Assembly (NCBI GenBank): GCA_018063105.1
Contig: JAGOQX010000008.1
Location: 1-38,744, forward strand
Direction of reading: 5' to 3'
DNA length: 38,744 bases
DNA from: Patescibacteria group bacterium
GTDB taxonomy: Bacteria > Patescibacteriota > Patescibacteriia > 2-12-FULL-60-25
Under the pieces are notes generated by a model. The model saw nothing but the letters and a program-made list of their open reading frames with translations, was not told the origin of the DNA and searched no databases. The first letter of the stretch is position 1, and every line of letters starts with the position of its first letter. A program made the position numbers and the translations under genes. Positions 20,326 to 28,157 of the stretch are shown here, one piece after another.

Positions 20326-20763
20326 GATGCCAGGGCTAACGATAAGCCGAATTTTGTTCCCCGGGTATTACGCCGGTTCGATGATCATCTATCTGGGCCT
20401 TGATTTGCATCAAAGCTCGAGCGAGCTACCAGTTCCTTGGCATTGCTGCCGCAGATCTTGCTCTTGCGCTAGAGAGGGTTTACCACGAACGCGTGTTACC
20501 ACGCGCCGAGAATAGTGGCAGAGATTGCTCCGATGTTCATCGGAGATGACCACGTCTATTCACTTTTCACCTTTCCCCCGTAAAATCTCTTGCGAGATCA
20601 CGGGGTAGTATTGTCTCTGTGGCACTTTCCCTAGGTTTGTCCGCCTAAGGCGGACTATATCCTGGCCGTCGTTAACGGCTCTCATGACATTGGTTTTGAC
20701 ACCAACAAGTGTTCGGACTTTCCTCCCCGACTTGGTCGGGGCGATCATCTGTGTAACCCAAGC
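20326..20763 (-). ncRNA. rnpB: RNase P RNA
   Basis: The minus strand contains the universal GAGGAAAGTCC element (20715-20725) near the 5' end and the matching CRV element AATTCGGCTTAT near the 3' end (about 20341-20352), which together form helix P4. Between them are GC-rich hairpins such as GTCCGCC/GGCGGAC and CTCCGATG/CATCGGAG. Length about 438 nt fits a bacterial class A RNA. It is the catalytic RNA that matures tRNA 5' ends. The 5' end is placed 7 nt after the -10 box; the 3' end just before the terminator stem. Confidence 0.95.
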
Positions 20764-20798: not shown

Positions 20799-20818
20799 CC
20801 AGTCTTGCGTGCTATTAT
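20790..20818 (+). promoter_or_regulatory. Promoter of the cyclase gene
   Basis: TTTTGT (20790-20795), 17 bp, TATTAT (20813-20818). The -35 box overlaps the rnpB -35 on the other strand, so the two promoters cannot be occupied at once. Confidence 0.5.
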
Positions 20819-20841
20819 TCACGCAAATACTTGTCCAAAAT

Positions 20842-22845
20842 ATGAACATTTCACAACGCGCGTGGCAGCCAATGATTGTAGGGGGTGGCGTTGGAGTGCT
20901 CATTGCAATTGGGTTTCTTTCTGGCATCTTGAATTCTTGGAGTAGCCGAGCGACTGATCGATTGTTTTTACCGCATACATCGGACCCTCGAATTGTTGTT
21001 GTTGCAATTGATGATACGTCGATTAATCAGATCGGTCGGTGGCCATGGTCGCGAACGGTTCATGCGGAATTGATCAAAAAGATTCATGGCGCTGGTGCAA
21101 AGGTTATTGGGTATGACGTGAACTTTCCAGAAGTCTCATCCGATCAAGATGATCATGCGCTTGCTGATGCGCTCAAGGGTGCAGGAAATGTCGTGTTGCC
21201 AATTGAGCTTCAGATTGGATTGAAGCAGGGGGTCAACGTGTATGATCCAAAACAGATTCTTGCACCGATCTCATTGTTGAGCTCTGCCGCGGTTTCAACC
21301 GGCTTTGTAAACGAGCTCCCGGATCCAGATGGTGTTGTTCGTCGTGTTCCGTTGACCGTGACCTCAGCAAAGTCTGAAGAGTATCCAGACTCGCTCCCAT
21401 CGTTCGTTTTAGAGATTGCACGGTATGGCGGTTTTGATGATCGAATAGCGGAGGCTCCGGTCAATAGAGCAAAACGGAATTCATTGATCATCAACTATCC
21501 GGGTGCACCTCGTCAGATATTTGCAACGCTGTCAGCTGTAGACATCCTTCGTGATCGAGTGAGTCTTGATCGTCTTCGCGGAGCCATTGTTTTTGTTGGC
21601 GCTACAGCAAATGATCTACATGATAATGCACTTGTCCCAACATCAAACGGCGTCCCGATGTCCGGCGTTGAAATTCATGCATCAACATTAGATACACTCC
21701 TGAGCCGTCGTTGGCTTCGGGAAGTTCCGGAGTTGCCGTTCGCATTTGTACTCATTGTTCTCAGTTTGATTGTTGCCTTCATTACATCTCACGTTCGTGC
21801 CAGATGGAGTGTCCTCCTCATCGGTCTTTCCTGGTTTGCGATGATTGTCAGCGGCTTCATTTTGTTTGATCGAGGCTGGATCATGGATCTCATCTGGCCG
21901 ACATTTGTCCTCGTCTTCGTCTCCGCTGCCGTGACTCTTGAACGTCGTGTGACGGCTGATCGTGAACGTCGAGAATTGAAAGCCGCTTTTTCACGGTACG
22001 TTTCGCCATCCGTCGTTGATTCTGTGATGAAAAATCCGGACAAACTCAAACTTGGAGGTGATCGAAAACGCATGACAGTTTTGTTTTCTGACATCCGTGG
22101 ATTTACGACAATTTCAGAAGGGCTCTCACCGGAAAAACTCGTTGAGATTTTGAACCGCTATCTTGATCGCATGACCTCGATTGTCTTTGAGCATGATGGT
22201 GTCTTGGACAAGTACATCGGTGACGCGGTGATGGCATTTTGGAATGCGCCACTTGATCAACCAGATCATGCGTTACGAGCCGTGAAGACAGCGTTAACAA
22301 TGAGTGAGGCACTGGCGAAGATGAACGCAGAAAATGCGTTTGATGGTCATGAGCTTCATATCGGCCTTGGCGTGAACACGGGTGACATGGTTGTTGGAAA
22401 CGTTGGGGGAGAGACGCGATTTGATTACACGGTCATCGGCGACAACGTGAATTTGGGATCACGCCTAGAAAGTCTTACGAAAGAATATGGCGTTCAAATC
22501 ATCATCACTGAAGCTACGCTGGGTGAATTGAAGAAGCAGGTGCTTACGCGACGACTTGATAAGGTTGCAGTGAAAGGGAAGAAGGAACCGGTCGTCATTT
22601 ATGAAGTGATGGAGTTAATGGAAACGGCTTCGCCAAAACGAAAGAAGTTTGCAAAGGAGTTTGAGGCCGCGCTTGATCTCTATTTTTCCCGTCAGTTCAA
22701 AGAGGCTGTTCAAGCATGTGATCTATTGTTGAAGACAACACCTGATGATGGGGCAACGAAAACGCTCCTTGAGCGTGCTCAACATTTTATGAAATCGCCT
22801 CCAGAAGAGGGATGGGTGGGAACGTGGGTGTATACGAAGAAGTAG
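20842..22845 (+). CDS. CHASE2-domain class III adenylate/guanylate cyclase
   Basis: 667 residues from ATG 20842, chosen because the predicted transcript start is near 20825. One TM (about 10-31), extracytoplasmic CHASE2 sensor (about 34-294, with IVVVAIDDTSINQIGRWPWSR and IVFVGATA), three TMs (about 299-365), then the cyclase domain. Metal-binding Asp residues are D417 (FSDIRGFT) and D461 (YIGDAVMAFWN); base-recognising Lys/Asp are K457 (LDKYIGD) and D528 (FDYTVIGD); transition-state Asn/Arg are N537 and R541 (VNLGSRLE). The Lys/Asp pair favours ATP, hence cAMP. A C-terminal helical region of about 90 residues follows. Converges with trpS, 5 bp apart, no terminator. Confidence 0.93.
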   Translation: MNISQRAWQPMIVGGGVGVLIAIGFLSGILNSWSSRATDRLFLPHTSDPRIVVVAIDDTSINQIGRWPWSRTVHAELIKKIHGAGAKVIGYDVNFPEVSSDQDDHALADALKGAGNVVLPIELQIGLKQGVNVYDPKQILAPISLLSSAAVSTGFVNELPDPDGVVRRVPLTVTSAKSEEYPDSLPSFVLEIARYGGFDDRIAEAPVNRAKRNSLIINYPGAPRQIFATLSAVDILRDRVSLDRLRGAIVFVGATANDLHDNALVPTSNGVPMSGVEIHASTLDTLLSRRWLREVPELPFAFVLIVLSLIVAFITSHVRARWSVLLIGLSWFAMIVSGFILFDRGWIMDLIWPTFVLVFVSAAVTLERRVTADRERRELKAAFSRYVSPSVVDSVMKNPDKLKLGGDRKRMTVLFSDIRGFTTISEGLSPEKLVEILNRYLDRMTSIVFEHDGVLDKYIGDAVMAFWNAPLDQPDHALRAVKTALTMSEALAKMNAENAFDGHELHIGLGVNTGDMVVGNVGGETRFDYTVIGDNVNLGSRLESLTKEYGVQIIITEATLGELKKQVLTRRLDKVAVKGKKEPVVIYEVMELMETASPKRKKFAKEFEAALDLYFSRQFKEAVQACDLLLKTTPDDGATKTLLERAQHFMKSPPEEGWVGTWVYTKK

Positions 22846-24716: not shown

Positions 24717-26805
24717 AGACCTCTACGATGATTGAAAGAATCATCGGGCGGCGTTGGATTTTGTGGTAGAGGAATTCGCCGAGGTCTTCGCGGATCTTTT
24801 CTTTGAGATATGTTCCGTTTGCGTTTGATCGTGGATCTTGATCTTTGAGCGTGAGGGCAATGCGTTTGCGGGCCTGGAGAATCAAGTCGTTTTGGTCTTT
24901 CATGTAGATGAACCCGCGTGAAATGAAATCTGGCATCTGCATGAGCTGTCCCGTCTTTTCACTCACGATGGCGATGACGACGACGATACCGTCTCCGGCG
25001 AGTTCTTGGCGGTCGCGCAGCACGATGTGATTCGTGTCGCCAACGCCTAAGCCATCAACGAAAACATAGTCTGTCGGAACTTTTGTATTCGTAATCTGTC
25101 CATTGCCTTGGCGATCAAATTCCATGATCTGACCGTTGTCTGCAATAAAGATGTTGTCTTTTGGAAAGCCTTTTTCTTCTGCGATCTTGGCGTGTTCGCA
25201 CAAGAAGGAGTAGTGACCTTCGATCGGAATCAAGTATTTTGGTTTCACCATTTCATGCATTTCAACAAGATCTTCTTGTTTTGCATGACCACCAGCGTGA
25301 ACGTCCATCATCTTGTAATGAATAACCTCTGCACCTTCACGATACAGCGTGTCTTTCACGCGTTGCACGGAGCGTTCGTTTCCAGGAATGACGGATGAGG
25401 AGAATACAACCGTGTCGCCCGGCTCAATTTCAATGAATGGATGTTCGCGGTTTGCGATGCGCATCAATACAGCGCGTTCTTCACCTTGTGCGCCGGTACA
25501 AACGATCGCAACTTTTTCGCGTGGATAGCTGTTAATCTGCTTCGTTTCAATCAGTGTTCCTTTCTGTACCTTCATGTACCCAAGCTCTTGAGCGATTTGG
25601 ATGTTCGAGCGCATGGAGAACCCCTCGACAGCAACTTTGCGGCCTTGGCGTTCACAAGCAAGAATGATCTGTTGAATACGCGCGATCATTGAAGCAAACG
25701 TACCGATAATGACACGGCCTTTTGCATTTGCAATGATTTCGTCGATGTTATGTTGAATGTCAATTTCCGGTAATTGTTTGCCCGGTTGTGAGGCATTCGT
25801 AGAATCGATCATGAGCGCAAGCACGTTGCGTTCACCCAGTTTTTTGATTTTTTCAGTTTCTTGAATGGACTGTGCACCTGGTTCGGAATCCAGTTTGAAG
25901 TCTCCGGTATGCACGACGATACCGCACGGGGTATTCACGATCACGCCCATGGAAGATGGGACGGAGTGGGCGACACCAAAGAATTCAACGCTGAATGAAC
26001 CGAGCTTCAGAACATCATGCGCTTTGATGACGTGTAAGTTCAGCGGGGGAACGTCGCGATGATCATCTTGGCGCTTTTTGATAATTGCACAGGTCAAGTC
26101 TGTCGAGAAAATTGGCGGATTGCCTAAACGAGGAATCAAATGGGGGATACCACCGATGTGATCAAAGTGGGCATGAGTGATGATGACGCCGCGAATGTTT
26201 CGCTCCTTGCCTTTTAAGCAGGAGACATTTGGAATGATGTAGTCGACGCCAGGCATGTCTTCATCCGGAAACTGCAAACCCATATCAATGAGGATGATGT
26301 CGTTGCCATATTCGATCATGGTCATGTTGCGACCGATTTCTTCATTTCCGCCTAAAACGGAAATACGCAACCGTTGATCAGTTGTGGCTTGAAGGGCGTC
26401 GGTATCACTTCCGGTTTTGAGATATGGTTTGTGCTTGTAGGTGTTCATGCGAGCAGGGCGTGAAAATGCGCCACCTCCACCTGCGGAGGAGCGACCGCCT
26501 TTGCGTTTGCCGCCTGGGCCACCGTGGCCTCCTGCATGTGGAGCGTGTCCGTGTGCTGGGGCTGGTTTGCGCGTAGCAAAAAATGGCTTCGTGCCTTCTT
26601 CTCGGGCTAAGCCTTCTTTAATACTGAGGGGTTCTTTCTTCCCGTTTTTTGCAACAGCCTTCGCGATAATCGATGAGGTTGGTGCAATTTGCTCACGTGA
26701 GCTTCCCGGCTTGGTAAATGTTTTTCCAGGCTTTGGGGATGGTTTCCAGTTGCCTCGAGGGTGAACGTTTCCTTGAGGGGATGGATATTTTTGGATTGGA
26801 TCCAT
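24715..26805 (-). CDS. rnj: Ribonuclease J with long basic N-terminal extension
   Basis: 696 residues; RNase J proteins are usually about 555. The extra about 143 N-terminal residues are low-complexity, basic and rich in Pro, Gly, His and Lys (for example HGHAPHAGGHGGPGGKRKGG near 85-104), probably disordered RNA-binding or interaction sequence. The catalytic part begins RLRISVLGGNEEIGRNMTMI. The metallo-beta-lactamase motif is HAHFDH at 211-216, later HTGDFKLD and the beta-CASP signatures follow, and the C-terminus carries the RNase J helper domain (ENGQ-like IADNGQIMEFDR, then GLGVGD). It is a 5'-3' exo- and endoribonuclease in mRNA decay and rRNA processing. Monocistronic. Confidence 0.95.
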   Translation of the reverse strand: MDPIQKYPSPQGNVHPRGNWKPSPKPGKTFTKPGSSREQIAPTSSIIAKAVAKNGKKEPLSIKEGLAREEGTKPFFATRKPAPAHGHAPHAGGHGGPGGKRKGGRSSAGGGGAFSRPARMNTYKHKPYLKTGSDTDALQATTDQRLRISVLGGNEEIGRNMTMIEYGNDIILIDMGLQFPDEDMPGVDYIIPNVSCLKGKERNIRGVIITHAHFDHIGGIPHLIPRLGNPPIFSTDLTCAIIKKRQDDHRDVPPLNLHVIKAHDVLKLGSFSVEFFGVAHSVPSSMGVIVNTPCGIVVHTGDFKLDSEPGAQSIQETEKIKKLGERNVLALMIDSTNASQPGKQLPEIDIQHNIDEIIANAKGRVIIGTFASMIARIQQIILACERQGRKVAVEGFSMRSNIQIAQELGYMKVQKGTLIETKQINSYPREKVAIVCTGAQGEERAVLMRIANREHPFIEIEPGDTVVFSSSVIPGNERSVQRVKDTLYREGAEVIHYKMMDVHAGGHAKQEDLVEMHEMVKPKYLIPIEGHYSFLCEHAKIAEEKGFPKDNIFIADNGQIMEFDRQGNGQITNTKVPTDYVFVDGLGVGDTNHIVLRDRQELAGDGIVVVIAIVSEKTGQLMQMPDFISRGFIYMKDQNDLILQARKRIALTLKDQDPRSNANGTYLKEKIREDLGEFLYHKIQRRPMILSIIVEV

Positions 26806-27069
26806 AACAAACAGATGGTAATAAACGTAAATAATATAAGGTGTATCTATTCACTTTTTGCCAATAACGACAGAAAATATGACATTTTTTGGAAAAAAGC
26901 GAATAGACACTCGATTTGATAATTTGGTAATTCCCGTTGCATAGATGGCGCTTTTCCTGGGTTTCAGCCAATCAATAGCAATTTGTCGCTTTGTACAGTT
27001 CTACAGTGCAAAACTACGCAACGGGCGGTTCAAACAACGGCACACTCAAGGCAGGTCACTAACGAATCG
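26806..27069. other. Untranslated region between RNase J and the small RNA, with 8-bp inverted repeat
   Basis: No reading frame of note. CCCGTTGC (26933-26940) and GCAACGGG (27018-27025) are perfect complements enclosing 77 nt, which hold further short pairs (GGC...GCC at 26948-26970). The stretch could be the RNase J leader, or a second folded RNA. RNase J transcripts with regulatory leaders are known in other bacteria; that link is inference. Confidence 0.35.
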
Positions 27070-27277
27070 AAAATCCTGAAAATTGATTATTGAGGGATTT
27101 TTATTCTGCGGAAGCGTCTTGAATTGATCTGGAAAACTATCGTTTCCTCAAACGGGACAATGAATGTCTCCGCGAAGATTTTGGTTTTAGATCTAACGTG
27201 TAGGCCAAATGGCCTCTTTCACGACCGTCGGAATTGGCCTAATCTTAGGCAAATCTGCGACGAATGTGAACTGACTT
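27070..27277 (-). ncRNA. Candidate structured small RNA, about 208 nt
   Basis: A near-consensus minus-strand promoter (TTGACG-17-TATTCT) is followed by about 200 nt without a coding frame and then a hairpin ending in TTTT (AAAATCC 27070-27076 / GGATTTT 27095-27101). Within it, minus-strand hairpins are visible: GCCTAA/TTAGGC, AGGCCA/TGGCCT, GGAGACA/TGTCCC and GGAAAC/GTTTTCC. The last two are nested in an outer GCGGAG/CTTCCGC stem, giving a branched fold. I see none of the signatures of tmRNA, 4.5S/SRP RNA or classical 6S RNA. It points toward the RNase J gene. Confidence 0.5.
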
Positions 27278-27283
27278 GTTCAT

Positions 27284-27312
27284 AGAATAGCACGGAATGG
27301 ATGTGTCGTCAA
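27284..27312 (-). promoter_or_regulatory. Promoter of the candidate small RNA
   Basis: Minus strand: TTGACG (27307-27312), 17 bp ending CCGTGC, TATTCT (27284-27289). Confidence 0.6.
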
Positions 27313-27385
27313 TGTTCTGGGTTGAACGGCCAGCGCACAGTTGATAACATAGGGGTGTAAATTATTGGATATTATTCTTGATAAT

Positions 27386-28036
27386 ATGAATATGGAAACT
27401 CCACCAAAGGCGGGACCGGATACGAAACAGACAAGAGAAGATGAAGAGGATGCGTTAGATTTGTTACACCGTTGGCCAACACAGAACGAGCCTTTAGATC
27501 CGGTTTTGCTAGTAAACCCAGAAGGTGCGTTTCAAGGTGTTGAAATGGGTATTGAAAACCTCGAACGTCCAAATACAGATGTAGAGGATCGAATCGTTGA
27601 AAGACTCCGGCTTCGACGTCTCCAAGAGGAGGAATCAAGGATTGCTCCTGAACGAATCGAGGAACTGCAAGGTTTGATTGACCAAGGAGTTGATGTTGTT
27701 GCTGCTGGGGTACCAGAAGTGAGTCCGGATCAGAATTTAACGGGTAGAAATAGGACCGTTGCTTTGAATCGGAGAGATATGGAGACATTTGGCGCTGTGA
27801 TTGGAGGGGAGCAGGCTGGCTTGGCGACAAGAGGCGAGGTTGTTCGAGGCGGAGAGATGCCTGCAGGAATGACGACAGAGTTATCGGGAAGCGGCGGATC
27901 TACGATGAGTGTTCAGGGCATCGAGGGCGTTGGGGAAACGGATGTTCAACCGGCAATGTTTAATCTTGCAGAGTTACAACGACAGGATGAGGAGCGCCAG
28001 CGTCGTGCAGGAGGGAATCGAACAAATGCAGCGTAA
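27386..28036 (+). CDS. Unknown acidic, probably disordered protein
   Basis: 216 residues from ATG 27386 (ATG 27392 is equally possible; a TATTAT -10 at 27370-27375 excludes starts further upstream). MNMETPPKAGPDTKQTREDE... Rich in Glu, Asp, Arg, Gly and Gln with no cysteine or membrane segment; the central part has short helices (DRIVERLRLRRLQEEESRIA, RIEELQGLIDQGVDVVAAGV). The C-terminal half is Gly/Thr/Ser-rich (GGEMPAGMTTELSGSGGSTM). No family recognised. The terminator after it is shared with the convergent tRNA-Leu gene. Confidence 0.6.
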   Translation: MNMETPPKAGPDTKQTREDEEDALDLLHRWPTQNEPLDPVLLVNPEGAFQGVEMGIENLERPNTDVEDRIVERLRLRRLQEEESRIAPERIEELQGLIDQGVDVVAAGVPEVSPDQNLTGRNRTVALNRRDMETFGAVIGGEQAGLATRGEVVRGGEMPAGMTTELSGSGGSTMSVQGIEGVGETDVQPAMFNLAELQRQDEERQRRAGGNRTNAA

Positions 28037-28070: not shown

Positions 28071-28157
28071 TGGTGGGCGAGGAGAGACTCGAACTCTCAC
28101 AATCTTGCGATCGCTAGCACCTGAAGCTAGTGCGTCTACCAATTTCGCCACTCGCCC
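28071..28157 (-). tRNA. tRNA-Leu (anticodon CAG)
   Basis: The minus strand starts GGGCGAGTGGCGAAATTGG and folds with acceptor stem GGGCGAG/CTCGCCC, the anticodon loop CTTCAGGTG (CAG), a class II long variable arm (GCGATCGCAAGATTGT) and the T arm GAGAGTTCGAGTCTCTC. The terminal CCA is encoded. Length 87 nt, normal for tRNA-Leu. Confidence 0.96.

Follow-up and report, generated by a model that had tools for sequence, protein, structure and literature searches.

A conserved leader hairpin ahead of rnj in Candidatus Uhrbacteria, a possible sensor for autoregulation of RNase J

Patescibacteria have tiny genomes with few known regulators. The window (the whole stretch of 38,744 nucleotides analysed here) comes from a draft genome of about 0.96 Mb, the genomes of its relatives being all 0.7–1.6 Mb, and it contains a stretch of 559 bp (26806–27364) in which there is no gene. 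What does this gap encode? An initial annotation, which gave its length correctly as about 560 bp, had seen on the minus strand a promoter, nested hairpins and a terminator, and had proposed a new small RNA.

The gene rnj, coding for RNase J, one of the principal enzymes of RNA decay, lies directly downstream of the gap (Table 1), and transcription from the promoter would continue into it. The closest named RNase J genes are those of Candidatus Uhrbacteria (Patescibacteria). On the other side of the gap lies a divergent gene (27365–28036, plus strand; 223 aa, no Pfam match), which has this gap in common with the rnj promoter. It is followed by a tRNA-Leu (CAG) gene at 28071–28157 on the minus strand, upstream of rnj; in certain relatives and in other families, too, rnj is preceded by leucine-tRNA-like sequences (loci L052, L073 and L087 are examples), and the gene order is apparently old. 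Elsewhere in the window, a class A RNase P RNA (20328–20760, minus strand) adjoins a gene for a CHASE2-adenylate/guanylate cyclase (20809–22845, plus strand), and in several relatives (loci L010–L012) a protein recognised by eye as cyclase-like was found near rnj and a tryptophan/tyrosine-type tRNA synthetase.

Table 1. Features of the rnj locus, in coordinates of the window
Feature	Position	Strand	Description
Promoter of rnj	27284..27312	minus	-35 TTGACG 27312-27307, 17-bp spacer, extended -10 TG.TATTCT 27289-27284
5' leader of rnj mRNA	26806..27277	minus	start point estimated ~7 nt past the -10 box
Conserved 5'-terminal hairpin, type I	27217..27270	minus	UUCAC / 2x2 loop / UCGUCG / loop C-H opposite Y / GAUU / GCCUA apical stem
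Second strong hairpin in leader	26842..26910	minus	z -7.2 on rnj strand vs -4.3 on the opposite strand
rnj, RNase J, 696 aa	24715-26805	minus	Pfam RNase_J_b_CASP 1.9e-47, RNase_J_C 1.1e-27

When the DNA of the whole gap was searched against relatives, six matches were obtained, all of them within 27217–27299, a stretch made up of the -10 region and a 54-nt hairpin. The true conserved unit is 27270–27217 on the minus strand, about 54 nt. It forms the imperfect hairpin UUCAC-AU-UCGUCG-CA-GAUU-U-GCCUA(AGAU)UAGGC-C-AAUU-C-CGACGG-UC-GUGAA, and the length of the apical stem varies among copies. The structured character claimed for the region was confirmed: compared with shuffled sequences, the 216 nt following the promoter on the minus strand folded with a z of -3.6 and the hairpin alone with a z of -4.35. 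The particular fold that had been drawn, a GCGGAG/CTTCCGC stem enclosing two smaller stems, was absent from the minimum-energy and centroid folds and lies outside the part shared with relatives.

A covariance model, R1, was built from seven hairpins with no use of gene context and run over a family sample of 41 genomes of Candidatus Uhrbacteria, in which 38 rnj genes were found. It returned 19 sense-strand copies at E <= 1.1e-3, 12 of them new. All 19 preceded rnj and were oriented like it, ending 84–410 nt before its start codon, and the 12 new copies lay 84–222 nt upstream of the gene. In the alignment of these 19 type I sequences, double changes were observed in 15 of the 20 pairs, and the covariation score was 0.312 against 0.154 in shuffles, none of 500 shuffles reaching the observed value; 89.7% of the cells were paired, and sliding of the partners reduced this to 28–46%. 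In addition, an unpaired C16 and an unpaired Y46 were each conserved in 18 of 18 sequences and a G18.U45 pair in 16 of 18. These near-invariant positions suggest specific recognition of the internal loop, as if it were read by a protein.

In most of the remaining genomes, the equivalent place was occupied by a second sequence type (type II), AACGYUUUUCGC...CGAAAGUCGUGA. Its model, R2, gave 11 matches in the family at E <= 1e-5; since 10 of these were training sequences, the run mainly shows that there is a single copy per genome. All nine pairs of the type II apical stem had double changes. Between the two types, the pairs of the middle stem (stem 2) alternate between CG/GC and UA/UA, and both types retain GUCGUGA as the flanking 3' strand. 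Type I-like hairpins were found by inspection in four more genomes, and in four divergent genomes (G024, G010, G033 and G014) promoter and hairpin were in place but sequence similarity was small. A leader hairpin was thus present at 38 of 38 family rnj genes, sequence-related in 34 (both types) and by position only in 4.

The promoter of the window, TTGACG-17-TATTCT, scored 9/12 with an extended TG in a promoter scan; the scan found four promoter-like sites where 1.8 were expected, so this one is weak on its own evidence. It is backed by conservation, and the 17-bp spacing given in the initial annotation holds in relatives. Upstream sequence was sufficient for 36 leaders, and every one had a promoter of at least 9/12 at the equivalent place; the spacer was 17 bp in 35, and the median distance from promoter to first paired base was 12 nt, while 6.5% of random windows matched the same criterion. 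Because the type II hairpins were located partly with the help of the promoter, they were excluded from the independent count, which is 17 of 17 leaders found by the gene-blind R1, all with the promoter at a fixed distance. In the window, the hairpin starts about 13 nt past the -10 box and the transcription start is estimated to lie near 27277; given the short fixed distance, the transcript would open with the hairpin, whose start is estimated at about +1 to +7. A conserved RNA structure is found between the promoter and the start codon of a nuclease gene, and, judging from the sequences, wherever the hairpin was found in the family the RNase J mRNA begins with it.

We are highly confident that the hairpin is a cis-acting element of the rnj mRNA and not a free small RNA, and we infer that one transcript spans both hairpin and gene. 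A stand-alone small RNA, or one released from the leader, would agree with the promoter, with the structured region and with the unusually long leader of the window genome, where 410 nt separate the aligned hairpin end from the ATG (84–262 nt in relatives). Such an RNA would need its own terminator before the next gene, and none was found. The T-ended hairpin proposed for this role (AAAAATCC..GGATTTT) combines a loop of 18 nt with a stem rich in A/T and appeared in neither terminator scan; between the conserved hairpin and rnj, no terminator passed the scanner or a separate scan of the leader. Conservation is moreover limited to 54 nt, the hairpin is always upstream of rnj, and leader length in relatives goes down to 84 nt. 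A free-standing small RNA was rejected on these grounds (terminator, conservation, context), and we regard it as very improbable. What stands of the proposal is an uncatalogued structured RNA; the covariance model from relatives bore it out as regards covariation, but every family copy it found was upstream of rnj.

No second conserved element was found in the leaders; the remainder is sometimes structured, in ways not common to the relatives. With neither its length nor its remainder conserved, the leader shows no common downstream mechanism. The second strong hairpin of the window, with 17 contiguous pairs, lies about 40–100 nt ahead of the start codon of rnj and is possibly another element of the leader or a small repeat that has been inserted. 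Transcription attenuation was also considered and rejected, as the window leader has no terminator and only 3 of 18 leaders had a marginal one.

Outside the family, no hairpin linked to rnj was found in 287 genomes of the phylum (R1 and R2) or 240 genomes of the class (R2). Weak R1 matches in the phylum (E 5e-4 to 0.044) were treated as background, since in the loci examined RNase J was absent beside them. Similarly, among 76 named rnj loci, matches were confined to the Uhrbacteria-like L101–L117 (16 of the 18 closest), with none in the 58 more distant loci, and a promoter-hairpin unit of this kind was absent from 25 inspected rnj leaders of other families. The order has no further families in the genome collection; among the Patescibacteria sampled, the hairpin is, by these sequence searches, restricted to one family, Candidatus Uhrbacteria. 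An Rfam scan, at curated and at relaxed thresholds, gave no known family and chance matches only (window and type II leader). RF00040 did not match 26700–27500 even at E <= 10, and a phage collection was searched with no match. Among the open-licence papers searched, we found none linking Uhrbacteria to RNA motifs and none describing a conserved RNA element that belongs to RNase J. As an RNA family the hairpin is new; its functional kind, the cis element in the 5' UTR of a nuclease mRNA, is known.

What the hairpin does can be approached by analogy with other nuclease genes. It probably adjusts the amount of RNase J, and we give an even chance, or slightly better, to autoregulation by RNase J itself. 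Transcription would begin a few bases before the hairpin and yield an mRNA with the hairpin at its extreme 5' end, then the variable leader and then the coding sequence. In a feedback loop of this kind the hairpin would be the sensor. Its conserved internal loops would be recognised by unoccupied RNase J, acting by itself or helped by partners, for instance RNase Y or RNase III; enzyme in excess would attack or destabilise the rnj mRNA, and enzyme occupied with other RNAs would spare it. Both RNase J as the acting factor and repression as the outcome are our inference. RNase J, RNase Y and RNase III are present in the family, and no RNase E/G was found in the 41 family genomes. The family RNase J carries a basic, G/P/S-rich N-terminal extension (about 130–150 aa in the window) ahead of the metallo-beta-lactamase domain, which may be an RNA-binding arm. 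It measures 92–180 aa in the family and 18–91 aa in sampled hairpin-less families of the class, which as one clade contrast is only suggestive. The fuller reading, in which a new Uhrbacteria-specific RNA family serves as RNase J sensor in rnj autoregulation and is possibly read by this N-terminus, is tentative and falls a little short of an even chance. Against the feedback reading, another factor could bind the hairpin, the hairpin is unlike the rne element, the leaders show no shared downstream mechanism, and the four divergent genomes keep only the position and a hairpin. We know of no organism of the family in pure culture.

The main rival is a passive one, in which the hairpin would shield the mRNA from attack at its 5' end, that is, pyrophosphate removal followed by a 5' exonuclease, RNase J included, and so keep expression steady. 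Hairpins at 5' ends stabilise mRNAs in B. subtilis and E. coli (review PMC3997798), and a start at about +1 to +7 in a family with RNases J and Y and no RNase E/G would suit such a role. For shielding any hairpin would suffice, yet conservation here extends to the letters of the internal loop and to the 3' strand GUCGUGA, and only one gene carries the element; we consider this explanation rather unlikely. Conserved unpaired residues set in stems would fit any specific ligand, and the leader might instead be read by a ribosomal protein, another RNA-binding protein, a small molecule or an antisense RNA; this seems distinctly unlikely, as no riboswitch or r-protein leader of Rfam matched and autoregulation is common for nuclease genes (PMC3997798).

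A palindrome directly past the -10 box could also be a DNA operator, a CIRCE-like inverted repeat bound by a repressor. Its internal loops are asymmetric, however, its apical stem varies in length, and the two conserved wobble pairs fit an RNA on the sense strand only. Outside these two wobbles, G.U and A.C cells were equally rare (9 vs 11), which makes the strand test a modest one. We find an operator hardly credible, and return to RNase J acting on its own leader.

Self-regulation through leaders is common among nuclease genes, as in rne, pnp and rnc of E. coli (review PMC3997798; PMC10989929), and the stem-loop in the rne 5' UTR is the feedback sensor according to Diwa 2000 and Schuck 2009, as cited in PMC10989929. 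The rne element of E. coli and relatives, rne5 (RF00040), is like the rnj hairpin a conserved hairpin, and it lies in the leader of a gene whose product is a main mRNA-decay nuclease; it differs in nuclease family (RNase E, not RNase J) and in sequence and structure, while the Uhrbacteria hairpin is at the extreme 5' end and restricted to Uhrbacteria. In H. pylori, the enzyme is of the same family, and rnj is under negative feedback in which the 5' UTR is implicated, although the available part of that paper describes no conserved RNA element and the likeness is one of description only (PMC5874925). The rny gene of B. subtilis, likewise for a decay nuclease, controls its own mRNA through leader cleavages and trimming by RNase J1, but there the cleavages are spread along the leader and the early reading frame, and most of the leader is dispensable (PMC10303841).

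Hairpins that stabilise mRNAs from their very 5' end share the position of the rnj hairpin and differ from it in that its conservation is sequence-specific and strictly tied to one gene. To our knowledge, no cis-regulatory RNA has been described for the mRNA-decay enzymes of Patescibacteria. A suspected small RNA has thus resolved, once relatives were examined, into the leader of an mRNA, and the rnj hairpin offers a small, testable element for the sensing of RNase J levels. Should the feedback reading be true, the hairpin would be, as far as we could find, the first conserved RNA element defined for RNase J feedback, and its fixed place in the rnj leader would show that control of this kind over a nuclease evolved again, on a different enzyme.
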